From NCBI RefSeq assembly GCF_030419005.1, contig NZ_CP106951.1, positions 186,001-250,000 on the forward strand: DNA of 64,000 nt. The letters run 5' to 3'. The notes beneath the pieces are model-generated. The model saw only the letters and a program-made list of their open reading frames with translations, was not told the DNA's origin and did not search any database. The translations under genes and the position numbers were made by a program. Positions within the stretch are counted from its first letter, which is position 1. Each line of letters begins with the position of its first letter. Source of the DNA: Eleftheria terrae (GTDB lineage Bacteria > Pseudomonadota > Gammaproteobacteria > Burkholderiales > Burkholderiaceae_C). Below are positions 5,153 to 17,125 of the stretch, piece by piece.

Positions 5153-5950
5153 TCAGCGGGAGGCGCGGCGCTCGTTGCCGGCCCACATCGCGGTCCAGGG
5201 CTGCGCTTCCTCGCGGCCCGGACCGTGGCTGGCGGAGGCGCCGCCCGCGGCGCCTGAGCGCCACATGGCCGGCAGCACGCCCATCAGCGGGGGCAGCACC
5301 GCGAGCTGGCGCATCAGGGTGCCGATGCTGTCGGTGGCGGTCTTGGTGCGCACGCTGGCGATGTGCGAGCGGATGGTGGCGATGGCCACCCCCAGCAGCC
5401 GCGCGATCTCGTCGGGCCGGGTGCCGGCGGACAGCGCGGTCAGCACCCGGCTTTCGGTGGAAGTGAGGCCGTGGCTGCCGGCATAGCCCTGGATCGACAG
5501 CTCGGTGCACACCTCGCGCTTGCCGAGCAGCAGCAGGATCGGCCGTGGGCCCTCCGGCTCCAGCGTGCCGAGCGGCACGACGGATACGTTGAGCCGGTGG
5601 TCGGCGTCACCGAGGGCCAGCAGCTTGCGCAGGCCGCGAGCGGACGCGGTGCGCAAGGCCGAGTACAGCACCGCCGCATCGACGCAGCGCCGCGTGTGCA
5701 GCTGCCCGCCGACCAGCAGCAGCGGGTCTTCTCGCTGCAGCTCGAAGCGCGCCATGCGGTTCAGGTGCAGGGTATGGGCCTGCTCGTCGAGGATCAGTGC
5801 GCCGTAGTCGATCTCGTCCAGCGCGGCGGCCAGCCAGCGGGTGTCGGCCGCCAGCGAGGTGCGGGGCAGTGCGCTGCCGTAGGGCACCGGCCGGGGCGTG
5901 GATTCGGCCGGCGGGTCGGCCCGGGCGGGGGCAAAGATCGTGTCGGACAT
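5153..5950 (-). CDS. LuxR-family transcriptional regulator
   Basis: A 265-aa regulator. Residues about 45-150 look like a PAS-like sensory region (LDEIDYGALILDEQAHTLHL). Residues about 165-225 form a LuxR/GerE helix-turn-helix (GLTSTESRVLTALSAGTRPD, EIARLLGVAIATIRSHIASV). The start at 5950 is chosen for the GGAGA Shine-Dalgarno 5 nt upstream. After the HTH there is a tail of about 35 residues with no recognised domain. It is a stand-alone gene between the ECF41 operon and an exported Cys-rich protein. The ligand and targets are unknown. Confidence 0.85.
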   Translation of the reverse strand: MSDTIFAPARADPPAESTPRPVPYGSALPRTSLAADTRWLAAALDEIDYGALILDEQAHTLHLNRMARFELQREDPLLLVGGQLHTRRCVDAAVLYSALRTASARGLRKLLALGDADHRLNVSVVPLGTLEPEGPRPILLLLGKREVCTELSIQGYAGSHGLTSTESRVLTALSAGTRPDEIARLLGVAIATIRSHIASVRTKTATDSIGTLMRQLAVLPPLMGVLPAMWRSGAAGGASASHGPGREEAQPWTAMWAGNERRASR

Positions 5951-13116: not shown

Positions 13117-14280
13117 TCAGCAGGCCCAGGGGTAGGCCGAGCAGGTGTTGGTCACCATGGTGCCGAACGTGCCGTTGAGCTGCGTGCCGCCCTGCACCTT
13201 GCGGGCCGGGTCGATATAGCCCCAGGACACCACCGAGGTGACGCGGTTGCCCTCATACTCGGACGGCACCGGGCTGCTGTTGACGTAGTCGGCGCGCAGG
13301 TTCAGCACGATGGGCCCGCCGCTCGATCCGCCTTCCATGTCGGAGCCGAAGCTGCCGTTGCCGGTGCCCGAATCGGTCACCATGCTTTCCACCCGGTGCA
13401 GTTGCCCGCCGGAATCGAGGTTGCCGGGGTAGCCCAGCACGCTGTTGTGGCGGCCGATCATCGCGGGGTACTTGTAGCCCAGCCAGCCGGTGTAGTCGCC
13501 GATGCGGTAGCCGCTGCCGTTGCGGTTGAAGACGATCAGTGCGAAGTCGCCGGCATTGGGCACGCCGCCACCGCCGCACGCCCAGGTGGTGGTGGTGGTG
13601 GCATAGGCCCAGTTGGCCCAGGTGCCGTAGGGGCGGGTCTCGACCGCGCCGACGCGGCGGAAGCCGGGGATGAATTCGAAGCTGTCGTAGAAGCCCTCGC
13701 TGCCGCCGCGGCAGTTGGCGCGGTGCACGCAGTGGCCCGCCGTGACCACCACGCCGGGCTTGATCATCGAGCCCGAGCACATGTAGCGGCCGCCGGTGGA
13801 GGGATCGCGGAAGTAGAGCTTGCCCACCGTGCGGGTCGGATAGGTGGTGTCCGAGTTGTTCGGATAGACCCGGGTCGAGGTGAAGTGCACGCCCATGGTG
13901 CCGACCGCCGAGGGGGCGACGCCGTCCGTGGCGGCGGCGGGCAGCAGCAGCGCGCTGTACGTCTTGCGCTGGGCGAGGCCCGCGGCGTCGCGCCCGCCGG
14001 CCGAGCCGGCAGCGCTGGCGCCACTGCCGGTGAAGCTGGCGGCCGAGACGGCGGCGTTGTAGTCGAACACCGAGGCCGGCAGCACGCTGACACGTGGCAG
14101 GGGCAAGGCCTGGGCGCGCGCATAGTCGGCGTCGCTCCAGCCGGCGCTGGCGGTGGCGGTGCCTTGCATCGATTGAGCGGTGACCGAGACGAGCCCGCGG
14201 GCTGCGTTGTGCTGTGCGCCGGCGCTCGCCGCCGCCAGGGTGGTGATGCAGGCGAGGAACAGCTTGGTGTTGGTGTGCAT
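13117..14280 (-). CDS. Secreted trypsin-like serine protease
   Basis: A 387-aa exported protease. It has a signal peptide (MHTNTKLFLACITTLAAASA, then GAQ), a propeptide-like region to about residue 150, and a chymotrypsin-fold domain. The catalytic triad is visible: His in VVTAGHCVH, Asp in NAGDFALIVFN, Ser in MEGGSSGGPIVLN. Cysteine pairs (HCVHRANC; a C-terminal CSAYPWAC) suggest disulfides. The start at 14280 is supported by GGGAG 7 nt upstream. It resembles V8-like or glutamyl-endopeptidase-type secreted proteases. It converges with the crp-like gene and diverges from the MNIO cassette. Confidence 0.9.
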   Translation of the reverse strand: MHTNTKLFLACITTLAAASAGAQHNAARGLVSVTAQSMQGTATASAGWSDADYARAQALPLPRVSVLPASVFDYNAAVSAASFTGSGASAAGSAGGRDAAGLAQRKTYSALLLPAAATDGVAPSAVGTMGVHFTSTRVYPNNSDTTYPTRTVGKLYFRDPSTGGRYMCSGSMIKPGVVVTAGHCVHRANCRGGSEGFYDSFEFIPGFRRVGAVETRPYGTWANWAYATTTTTWACGGGGVPNAGDFALIVFNRNGSGYRIGDYTGWLGYKYPAMIGRHNSVLGYPGNLDSGGQLHRVESMVTDSGTGNGSFGSDMEGGSSGGPIVLNLRADYVNSSPVPSEYEGNRVTSVVSWGYIDPARKVQGGTQLNGTFGTMVTNTCSAYPWAC

Positions 14281-14649
14281 ATGGAACTCCCGGAAAGGAC
14301 AACTGTCGCCAAACCCACTGGCGCCCTGTGTGCCGGTGTTGCGACGGGAGCAACGATAGGTGGCCGCTTTTCCGCACGCCTCCTTCACACATACTAGAAA
14401 TGCTTCAGGGGCGAGGCGATGCGGCCGCCAGCCCAGGCGCGCCGGCCATCGGCGATTTGCCATCCCCCTTCGGAGGGGGTCCCCCCTCGCGGGCGGGGTG
14501 GCCGGCACCTCCCTCCGTGGTGGGATGTGGCCGCTGCGGCTGCGGCCTATGTTTGCGGCGTGGTGCCTGCCTCGGTCGCGTTGCCGGGCGGTGCCACACC
14601 GATGCTGCACCTGCCGTGCAGCGTCCTGCACCACCGCAAGGAGGACATC
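14281..14649. other. Divergent intergenic region upstream of the MNIO cassette
   Basis: No gene was found in these 369 bases. There is a G/C hairpin (CCCCCT / AGGGGG, 14464-14479) and a second perfect 7-bp hairpin (GCTGCAC / GTGCAGC, 14604-14622) that ends 15 bp before the Shine-Dalgarno of the peptide gene. An AT-richer spot at 14386-14402 could hold promoter elements, but no convincing -35/-10 pair was identified. Confidence 0.4.
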
Positions 14650-14886
14650 ATGAGAGACCTGAAGTTCCAGCCCCTGGCGTACCAGGAGGGGCGCATCCGC
14701 GTCTATGTCGACAGCAGCGTCACCTACGACCTGGAGAAGATGAACCGCATCACCGCGGCCGTCCTGGAGAAGTACGGCTGTGCCGGCTGCCATTCGGGCC
14801 GCACGCTGGACTTCGTCAGCCTGCGCGACTTCGTCGTCAACCCGGTGACGCTGGACATCGAGGACGTCGCGGCCCGCCCGGCCTGA
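14650..14886 (+). CDS. Putative MNIO substrate peptide with CxxCH motif
   Basis: A 78-aa peptide preceded by a very strong Shine-Dalgarno (AAGGAGG, 14638-14644, spacing 5). It has no signal peptide. The N-terminal half is a charged leader-like region (QEGRIRVYVD, DLEKMNRITAAVLEKYG). Then come Cys44 and Cys47 with His48 (CAGCHSG), followed by an Asp-containing tail (LDFVSLRDFVVN, LDIEDV). It lies 10 bp upstream of an MNIO-family gene, so by analogy with methanobactin, TglA, chryseobasin and bufferin systems it is likely the modified peptide. CxxCH also matches a haem-c motif, but without export haem attachment is unlikely. Assignment as precursor is inference from context. Confidence 0.75.
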   Translation: MRDLKFQPLAYQEGRIRVYVDSSVTYDLEKMNRITAAVLEKYGCAGCHSGRTLDFVSLRDFVVNPVTLDIEDVAARPA

Positions 14887-14896
14887 GGCGGTGGCC

Positions 14897-16321
14897 ATGC
14901 GAGCGCTGGGCGTCGGCTTGACGTACTGGCCGGTGCTCTCGCCGCTGTTCGAGGGCGACACGCCGGCCGCTGCCGTGCTGGAGCTCGAGCCGCAGACCCT
15001 GTGGACCAAGGTCGCCACCGCGGCCGGCTGGCAGTACCGCTGCAACGAGGCGCTGCTGGCTCGCGTGGCCGCGCTGCCCCAGGCCAAGCTGCTGCACGGC
15101 GTGGGACAGCCCCTGGCGGGCGCCACCCGCGATCCGCTGCCGCATCGGTCGCTGCTGAGGCAGGCGGCCGATGCACTGCGTGTCGCCTGGGTCAGCGAAC
15201 ACCTGAGCTTCAACCGGGTGCGCCGCCAGGGTGGCGTGCAGGAGGCCGGCTTCCTGCTGCCGCCGCGCCAGCGGCCGGCGGCGGTGCGGGTGGCGGCCGA
15301 TGCGGTGCGGCGCTATGGCCGTGCGCTGGGCCGGCCGGTGGCCTTCGAGACCGGCGTGAACTACCTGCGCCCGCAGCGTGACGAGATGAGCGACGGCGAC
15401 TTCTTCGCGGCGGTGTCGCAAGCGGCCGGCTGCGGCATCGTGCTGGACCTGCACAACCTCTGGTGCAACGAACGCAACGGCCGCCAGCGGATGGCCGAGG
15501 CGCTGCGCCAGGTACCCCTGGAGCGGGTGTGGGAACTGCACCTCGCGGGCGGCATGCCGATGGGCAGCTACTGGCTCGACGCGCACAGCGGCGCAGTGCC
15601 AGAGCCGGTGATGGCGCTGGCGGCCGAGTGGCTGCCGCGCCTGCCGCAGCTCGGCGCGATCATCTTCGAGATCCTGCCCGAGCATGTGCCGCGGCTCGGC
15701 CTGGACGGCGTGGCGCGGCAGCTGGAGCGCCTGCAGGCGCTGTGGGCGCTGCGTCCACCGCGCACGCTGGCCGTGCCCCGGCTGCACGCGGCAGCGCGCC
15801 GGCGCCCAGCGGCGTCCAGCAGCGACCTGGCCGCCGTCGCTGCCTGGGAGAGCGCGCTGGTGGACACGCTGCGCGGCCAGGTGCGGCCCGGCTTCGGCTG
15901 GCTGGCCGCCGATCCCGGCGTGGCGCTGCTGGCGGAGCTGGTGGCCGACTTCCGCCGCGCCAGCCTGTCGAAGGTGTTGCGCTACACGCTGACGCTGCTG
16001 CTGGGCACGCTCGGCGAGGCGGAGACCGCGGCGCTGCTGGCGGCCTACCTGGTCCAGCACCCGCCGGACAGCTTCGCTGCGGTGGAAGCCGAGCAGTTCA
16101 CCCGCTTCCTGGCGGCGCACGAGGCGATGCTGCGGCGGGTGCCGCACCTGGCGGAGGTGCTGGCCTTCGAGCAGGCCTTGCTGCGCGCGACCCTGTACGG
16201 CGAGAGCCGCCAGCTGCGCTGGAGTGTCGATCCGGCCGGGCTGTTCGAGGCGCTGGAGGCCGGGCGAGTGCCCGCCGCACAGGCCGCCTTGCCGACCACG
16301 ATGCTGATCACCACCGCCTGA
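14897..16321 (+). CDS. MNIO (DUF692) enzyme fused to a DUF2063-like domain
   Basis: A 474-aa protein; the ATG at 14897 has GAGG 8 nt upstream. Residues 1-285 are a DUF692 TIM barrel. The family's metal-ligand positions are visible: His67 (LHGVG), His102 (VSEHLSF), Glu151 (FETGVNYL), Asp184 and His186 (LDLHNLW, where most members have an Asn), His215 (HLAGG), Asp228 and His230 (LDAHSG). Such enzymes use a multi-iron centre and O2 to modify Cys or Asp residues of ribosomal peptides. Residues about 290-474 are helical and resemble DUF2063/BufC partner proteins (YLVQHPPDS, FTRFLAAHEA, PHLAEVLAFEQALLRA), so enzyme and partner appear fused. It is probably co-transcribed with the CxxCH peptide gene. 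Confidence 0.88.
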   Translation: MRALGVGLTYWPVLSPLFEGDTPAAAVLELEPQTLWTKVATAAGWQYRCNEALLARVAALPQAKLLHGVGQPLAGATRDPLPHRSLLRQAADALRVAWVSEHLSFNRVRRQGGVQEAGFLLPPRQRPAAVRVAADAVRRYGRALGRPVAFETGVNYLRPQRDEMSDGDFFAAVSQAAGCGIVLDLHNLWCNERNGRQRMAEALRQVPLERVWELHLAGGMPMGSYWLDAHSGAVPEPVMALAAEWLPRLPQLGAIIFEILPEHVPRLGLDGVARQLERLQALWALRPPRTLAVPRLHAAARRRPAASSSDLAAVAAWESALVDTLRGQVRPGFGWLAADPGVALLAELVADFRRASLSKVLRYTLTLLLGTLGEAETAALLAAYLVQHPPDSFAAVEAEQFTRFLAAHEAMLRRVPHLAEVLAFEQALLRATLYGESRQLRWSVDPAGLFEALEAGRVPAAQAALPTTMLITTA

Positions 16322-16567: not shown

Positions 16568-17125
16568 GTGACGCATCTCTCCCGCCGCCGTTTCGTCGCT
16601 GCCCTGGCCGCAGCACCGTCCCTCGCCGCCTTGCCCAGCTGGGCACGTGCCGCATCTGCCGCCCCCACTGCCGCAGGCTCCCGCGCACTCAAGTTCGCGC
16701 ACCTGCACACCGGCGAACGCCTGAGCGTGGAGTATTTCGCCCAGGGCGCCTACCTGCCGGATGCCCTGGCCGAGATCAACCGGCTGCTGCGCGACTTCCG
16801 CACCGCGGAGGTCAAGCCGATCGATCCCCATCTGCTCGACCTGCTGCACGGCCTGGCCGAGCGCACCGGCACCAGCCGGCCGTTCGAGATCATCTCCGCC
16901 TACCGTTCGCCTCACACCAACGAAGCGCTGCGTGGCAAGAGCGCCCACAGCGGCGTCGCCACCCGCAGCCTGCACATGACGGGCCAGGCAATGGACATCC
17001 GGCTGGCCGACGTGTCGCTGCCAGACCTGCGCCGCGCCGCGCTGTCGATGGGCGCCGGCGGGGTCGGCTATTACCCGGAGTCGCGGTTCGTCCACGTGGA
17101 CACCGGGCGCGTGCGCGCCTGGTAA
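16568..17125 (+). CDS. MepK-like murein endopeptidase (YcbK/DUF882, M15 fold)
   Basis: With a GTG start at 16568 this is a 185-aa protein beginning with a Tat-type signal (SRRRFVAALAAAP, ending ARA). An upstream in-frame ATG at 16442 would add 42 residues that look non-coding. The domain carries the zinc-site motif of M15/DUF882 peptidases: His136 and Asp143 (SLHMTGQAMDI) and His176 (FVHVDTG). The E. coli homologue MepK cleaves meso-DAP 3-3 crosslinks. Here the gene converges with an L,D-transpeptidase that makes such crosslinks, 59 bp away, so the pair likely remodels 3-3 linkages together. Confidence 0.88.
   Translation: MTHLSRRRFVAALAAAPSLAALPSWARAASAAPTAAGSRALKFAHLHTGERLSVEYFAQGAYLPDALAEINRLLRDFRTAEVKPIDPHLLDLLHGLAERTGTSRPFEIISAYRSPHTNEALRGKSAHSGVATRSLHMTGQAMDIRLADVSLPDLRRAALSMGAGGVGYYPESRFVHVDTGRVRAW

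Follow-up and report, generated by a model that had tools for sequence, protein, structure and literature searches.

We analyzed a stretch of 64,000 nucleotides from the genome of Eleftheria terrae [NZ_CP106951.1], hereafter the window, and revealed in it two adjacent genes located on the forward strand at 14638–16321. The first encodes a small peptide and the second an enzyme of the MNIO type. The following features were recognized:

14638–14644 (+), Shine-Dalgarno sequence AAGGAGG, read directly, 5 nt upstream of the peptide start
14650–14886 (+), gene of a 78-aa candidate substrate peptide with GCAGCHSG; ATG at 14650, stop codon at 14884–14886
14779–14802 (+), codons 44–51 of the peptide, CAGCHSGR; GCxxCxSG core, candidate modification site
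14897–16321 (+), gene of a 474-aa MNIO enzyme with a fused partner domain; ATG at 14897; PF05114
14897–15760 (+), catalytic TIM-barrel domain of the enzyme, residues 1–288, with nine iron ligands
15785–16318 (+), fused DUF2063-type partner domain, residues 297–474, recognized with hhalign; a separate gene in locus L108

The translated motif of the peptide is C44-A-G-C47-H48. An alternative in-frame GTG start of the enzyme is present at 14891, and the start at ATG 14897 is supported because the majority of relatives in an alignment of 27 start near M-x-x-LGVGL. The gene pair is confirmed as real. The first-pass annotation of this DNA had described a strong Shine-Dalgarno sequence and, 10 bp before an MNIO gene, a CAGCH-bearing peptide; the former was read ahead of the peptide gene, and for the latter the coordinates (10 nt from the peptide stop to the enzyme ATG) and the PF05114 match agree.

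It should be mentioned that a GC-rich inverted repeat with a terminator-like score and a poor T run is located about 100 nt upstream of the peptide gene (window 14526–14547). Judged by eye from their translations, the flanking genes have the look of a trypsin-like serine protease (about 13117–14320, reverse strand) and of a DUF882/YcbK-type secreted protein (about 16576–17125, forward strand). Both are absent from the recurrent neighbors found in the 40 sources surveyed below.

The window genome contains one PF05114 gene. Its product matches this family with E 8.7e-37 and 127.2 bits (curated cut-off 25), and its structural model (pLDDT 95.3) is a TIM-barrel, the best structural match of which is TglH from pearlin biosynthesis (TglH/TglI; PDB 8hi7/8hci), the closest solved relative of the catalytic domain. 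The two enzymes share nine iron ligands, in the window enzyme H67, H102, E151, D184, N187, H215, D228, H230 and E258, and these are retained in all 54 aligned enzymes; L039 was left out of the enzyme alignment A4 owing to a stop within its range. The set of ligands visible to the first-pass annotation thus stands, except that the ligand in LDLHN is Asn187 rather than His186 and that Glu258 had been omitted. HLAGG and LDLHN, which had been regarded as differences from known systems, are both present in TglH and were rejected as signs of a new subfamily. The TglH substrate is also signal-less, like the window peptide (PMC12452194), whereas the TglH partner is a separate protein and that of the window enzyme is fused.

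In the model, residues 297–474 of the window enzyme form a helical domain ending in a short strand-helix-strand. We compared this domain with a DUF2063 alignment composed of the L063 protein, which matches PF09836 with E 4.2e-23, and 22 homologues taken from 30 loci that a PF09836 search had revealed. The hhalign probability was 94.5 (P 7.8e-8, 125 columns), as against at most 0.5 for 30 column shuffles, 0.1 for the reversed profile and 0.7 for the catalytic domain. A profile of the C-terminal domain also matched PF09836 proteins whose genes adjoin those of ordinary MNIOs (L114, E 1.5e-5; L063, 5.2e-5; L110, 1.8e-4). The Pfam signature PF09836 itself matched neither the window enzyme nor anything else in the window genome. 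The resemblance to DUF2063 proposed earlier for the C-terminal half of the enzyme, the lack of which was to count against the proposal, was therefore found, and it lies in the C-terminal third of the protein. This part is a DUF2063-type partner domain.

A relative in another genome of the window's order (L108, genome G206) contains peptide, MNIO and partner as three consecutive genes. The first encodes a 67-aa peptide containing GCRPCLSG, the second an MNIO of 304 aa and the third a protein of 192 aa, whose gene overlaps the MNIO stop by 4 nt. The 192-aa protein matches the fused domain with E 4.7e-25 and is below the cut-off for PF09836 (E 0.0082). Since this relative encodes MNIO and partner domain separately, the fusion in the window enzyme is real.

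The peptide has no match in Pfam or NCBIfam, and a profile search revealed 646 related proteins with E ≤ 0.001. Its conservation was studied in 153 sequences, 126 of them database-listed (the window peptide included) and 27 taken from loci, which comprise 157 domains and are skewed to good matches. In this set the GCxxCxSG motif is nearly invariant: G43 is present in 156 domains, C44 in 151, C47 in 156, S49 in 155 and G50 in 156. Position 46 is G or A in 148 of the 157 domains, and position 48 is more variable (His in 78, Cys in 63, Thr in 9). A c-type haem at CxxCH was rejected, as His48 occurs in only these 78 domains and an export signal is not visible. Position 54 is Arg in 86 domains and Asp in 40; Asp54, suggested in the first-pass annotation as a modification target, is thus poorly conserved and was dropped. 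The first Cys is missing in six of the 157 domains (L016, L017, L039 and P0021 among them) and Cys47 in one, that of L017. A degenerate peptide with Trp replacing Cys47 precedes a full-length enzyme in L015.

Some members of the family (L029, L031, L032, P0145, P0197, P0230, P0239) carry two copies of the peptide domain. In Rhodosalinus and Marivita the duplicated domain is located in one ORF (L029, 9541–9978; L031, 9541–9972; L032, 9551–9973); the second copies read HPACATG, HDACCSG and CGACCSG, and in two of these three the first Cys is absent.

The AlphaFold model of the peptide (pLDDT 84) has a beta-alpha-beta arrangement, in which a strand and a helix are followed by the motif loop and then by further strands. 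Comparison with solved folds gave no clear match; the similarity to the metallochaperone HypA found with Foldseek is weak and not significant (E 0.44). In six close pairs of relatives dN/dS was 0.10, 0.32, 0.33, 0.25, 0.27 and 0.63, three of the pairs being drawn from the same three Massilia; purifying selection thus acts on the peptide in these relatives. It is conserved over most of its length and, unlike a typical RiPP precursor, displays no obvious leader/core split. No export signal is visible by eye at the N-terminus, MRDLKFQPLAYQEGRIRVYV, which lacks a hydrophobic stretch, in agreement with the first-pass annotation. An apparently folded, conserved body not divided into leader and core suggests a modified protein and not a cleaved natural product.

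To get insight into the pairing of peptide and enzyme, we analyzed 56 loci obtained by a pattern-based scan of a species-genome collection. Thirty-nine loci were classed as fused (L002–L039 and L041, with broken frames in L034 and L036) and 17 as unfused; the profile of the C-terminal domain did not match the MNIO frames of the latter. For the peptide profile, the window peptide was combined with 22 database proteins, chosen by homology and not by position; the loci were excluded, and the profile was run on 17,027 ORFs from 63 sources. It matched 36 of the 39 fused loci (E ≤ 1.7e-6), which are not independent of each other and include five Massilia and some close pairs, and none of the 17 unfused loci (best E 2), which are mostly distant MNIOs. 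All 36 matches are on the strand of the enzyme; relative to the start of the enzyme match, the peptide stop ranges from 49 nt upstream to 3 nt within it. Of the remaining fused loci, L015 gave E 0.012, and L034 and L036 gave no match. Thus, peptide homologues go with the fused enzyme in nearly all of the loci analyzed, close to the constant co-occurrence that the first-pass annotation had proposed to look for. Peptide and enzyme identities are correlated over 23 loci (Mantel r 0.578, with 0 of 5000 permutations as high), a value that shared descent alone could also yield.

The same picture emerged from 300 genomes of the window's order, the enzyme and peptide scans of which were treated as the same draw (their handles recur). 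The full fused enzyme was found in three genomes, that of the window included, and all three contain the peptide; by the same profile it was found in none of 18 others with MNIO matches at E ≤ 1e-40. One of these 18, G206, carries the divergent L108 peptide, seen only by eye and with hhalign (probability 76.6, P 2.1e-5; 0 of 200 shuffles as high) and missed by peptide profiles A3 and A5 at E ≤ 0.05. Here the peptide accompanies an unfused enzyme, and therefore it is the enzyme clade, and not the fusion as such, that the pairing tracks. Across the phylum, the peptide was present in at least two of 398 genomes, G000 and G421, with up to 14 candidates scored per genome. Homologues occurring without MNIO genes would speak against the proposal; peptide-like sequence without an adjoining fused enzyme was seen in two genomes, as a peptide at a contig end in G197, where no enzyme match was found, and as a weak fragment in G421, whose sole A4 match, a frame of 282 aa, is located in another place.

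Two loci with broken enzyme frames deserve separate mention. In Luteimonas endophytica (L034, 9695–11590) the fused MNIO is frame-broken and the peptide match is absent, as if the cassette had decayed as a unit. In a cyanobacterial MAG (L036) an 84-aa ORF at 5240–5494 is located 141 nt before the match of the frame-broken fused MNIO. It contains the leader-like ELSDGEQEASNGG, which we take to be a leader of the double-glycine type, and its tail contains SCPACSSG, i.e., the same CxxCxSG on a different scaffold. Within the more specific, speculative reading formulated below, this locus would suggest that the motif, and not the scaffold, is recognized by the enzyme clade.

We also studied the neighborhood of the gene pair, considering ORFs of at least 90 aa within 9 kb in 40 sources (39 loci and the window; several contigs are short). 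Apart from the enzyme, the peptide and overlapping ORFs, the families listed occurred in at most seven of the 40 loci and at inconsistent positions, and most of the rest reflect Massilia synteny. A larger gene cluster was rejected, as no further neighbor occurs in more than seven of the 40 loci. Among the recurrent neighbors of these sources none points to metals, and none is a protease or an exporter. The locus is thus a two-gene cassette.

In a tree of the catalytic domain, which does not include L108 and L116, 46 fused rows fell on a single branch (support 99/96) after three rows had been relabeled by hand; four label changes were needed before. One of these rows, L047, had been called fused by an HMM-length rule and is actually a distant lone row where the C-terminal profile matches nothing; the other two, L034 and L036, had been labeled single owing to their broken frames and were relabeled as fused.

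Comparison with known systems revealed that the gene pair is probably already catalogued in part. Passages of a survey by Antoine et al. (2025; PMC12452194) describe adjamnio-7, putative precursors of MNIO cluster 7 that lack a signal and contain CxxC; the example given is WP_078758616, from Novilysobacter spongiicola. The window peptide is likewise signal-less (by eye), contains CxxC and is encoded together with an MNIO enzyme. N. spongiicola carries a homologous pair of peptide and fused enzyme (L010, L067); L010 comes from Lysobacter spongiicola DSM 21749, the strain recorded for this species. It contains two PF05114 genes, one of the fused type with the peptide ahead and the other followed by a separate DUF2063 gene. 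Because of this homologous pair we think that adjamnio-7 is the family of the window peptide, matched here through organism and description and not through the sequence of WP_078758616. The peptides differ in subtype, CHSG in the window and CCSG in N. spongiicola. As a novelty, the new subfamily proposed by the first-pass annotation is not supported in this respect, signal-less CxxC proteins of cluster 7 having been catalogued (PMC12452194). The MNIO-DUF2063 fusion and the GCxxCxSG motif are not mentioned in the consulted passages of the survey, where an MNIO|nitroreductase fusion is.

The bufferins (BufA-BufB-BufC) also combine an MNIO and a DUF2063 partner with a Cys-bearing substrate encoded just upstream, and in their clusters the gene order is strict, with the precursor gene directly before the MNIO gene (PMC12452194). 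However, their precursors carry Sec signals and the partner is usually a protein of its own, whereas the window peptide has no visible signal and the partner is fused. Bufferin-related enzymes read LDxNN and HLAGH, in contrast to LDLHN and HLAGG in the window enzyme, which reaches 109.9 bits with the BufB equivalog model (cut-off 310). TglI-type partners belong to PME-type 2 (PMC12452194); the window domain resembles this type in being DUF2063-homologous without the Pfam signature and differs in being fused, the partner being encoded separately there and also in L108.

The fusion, put forward as a difference from known systems, is real but not unique: bufferin-type MNIO|DUF2063 fusions were found in single frames in Massilia atriviolacea (L064, 1381–3114) and in the window's order (L116, 2864–4762), with PF05114 and PF09836 both over the cut-off. 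Unlike the window enzyme, they contain LDVNN or LDINN, and HLAGH. In the catalytic-domain tree L064 does not belong to the clade that contains the window enzyme and is probably an independent fusion, which suggests that such fusions arose more than once. Recognition or partner parts also share a chain with the MNIO in HvfBC, which is man-made, and in MovX. According to sections of a 2026 preprint (PMC13419390), weak association of enzyme and partner prompted the artificial HvfB-HvfC fusion, which is active; the partner enables a mixed-valent di-iron state, and MovX and ChrH are named as exceptions to separate partners. The fused C-terminal part of MovX is described there as an RRE, and in the survey as a winged helix-turn-helix domain (PMC12452194).

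Taken together, we propose that the peptide and the fused enzyme form a two-gene post-translational modification cassette, an overall explanation to which we assign a probability of roughly 0.65. That the two proteins are an enzyme and its substrate is highly likely, and the cysteines Cys44 and Cys47 are a likely modification site. The substrate would be the 78-aa peptide, acting as a small, folded protein of the cytosol. The partner, joined to the C-terminus of the MNIO, would keep enzyme and partner always at 1:1 and, by analogy with the separate partners, may hold the peptide and support a mixed-valent di-iron center. The thiolate of Cys47, of Cys44 or of both would bind iron, O2 would be activated and reduced at the iron center, and the Cys would be oxidized. 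The product would most likely be a 5-thiooxazole or an oxazolone/thioamide-like group formed with the preceding small residue (Gly43 or Gly46); ring closure onto the preceding backbone is plausible because small residues precede both Cys. A thiooxazole-like product is a tentative assignment, somewhat short of an even chance, and binding of metal by the product is more tentative still. Since proteases and exporters are not among the recurrent neighbors, the product is probably retained in the cytosol, where it may serve as a metal ligand.

Alternatively, the peptide could be an accessory subunit that donates iron or electrons through CxxC[CH], with the enzyme modifying something else. Conservation over the whole peptide, its folded model, its tight pairing with the enzyme and the weak similarity to HypA would all fit such a role. 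We consider it improbable: no other recurrent neighbor is available as a substrate, the peptide occupies the position of a bufferin precursor directly before the MNIO gene (PMC12452194), two-domain peptides are better suited to a substrate, and the HypA match lacks significance.

Oxidation of a residue other than Cys, such as the conserved Ser49, Asn/Asp64 or Phe61, would account for the L017 locus, where a related Cys-free peptide (1547–1783) directly precedes an enzyme with nine of nine iron ligands. Known MNIOs do act on Asp, Asn, Phe and homocitrulline (PMC12452194; PMC13174530). However, L017 is the sole Cys-free case among the 153 peptides and comes from a metagenome contig of 3.6 kb, and this explanation is more improbable than the preceding one. 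A TglH-type reaction, suggested by the closest solved relative with its common LDLHN and HLAGG, is very improbable, as the Asn73 essential for TglH falls in a one-residue alignment insertion and has no counterpart in the window enzyme (0 of 54 aligned rows have Asn at positions 68–70), and TglH acts on a C-terminal Cys whereas Cys44 and Cys47 are internal among the 78 residues of the window peptide.

MNIO chemistry is an active research field. Within the modification cassette that we favor, a more specific reading can be formulated, which we regard as speculative and, taken as a whole, unlikely: the system would modify a protein and not a natural-product precursor. A self-sufficient fused MNIO would oxidize Cys within the GCxxCxSG loop, and the small folded cytosolic protein bearing this loop would then be used whole, neither cleaved nor exported. 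Scattered lineages of several phyla would thereby have acquired a built-in metal ligand or redox group that is genetically minimal. In this clade, MNIO and partner occur naturally in a single chain, the candidate substrate is one small, well-conserved protein and no further gene recurs, and therefore the reaction is directly testable. If the reading is true, such a folded, uncleaved, cytosolic substrate would broaden the range of the MNIOs beyond peptide natural products, towards the modification of proteins.
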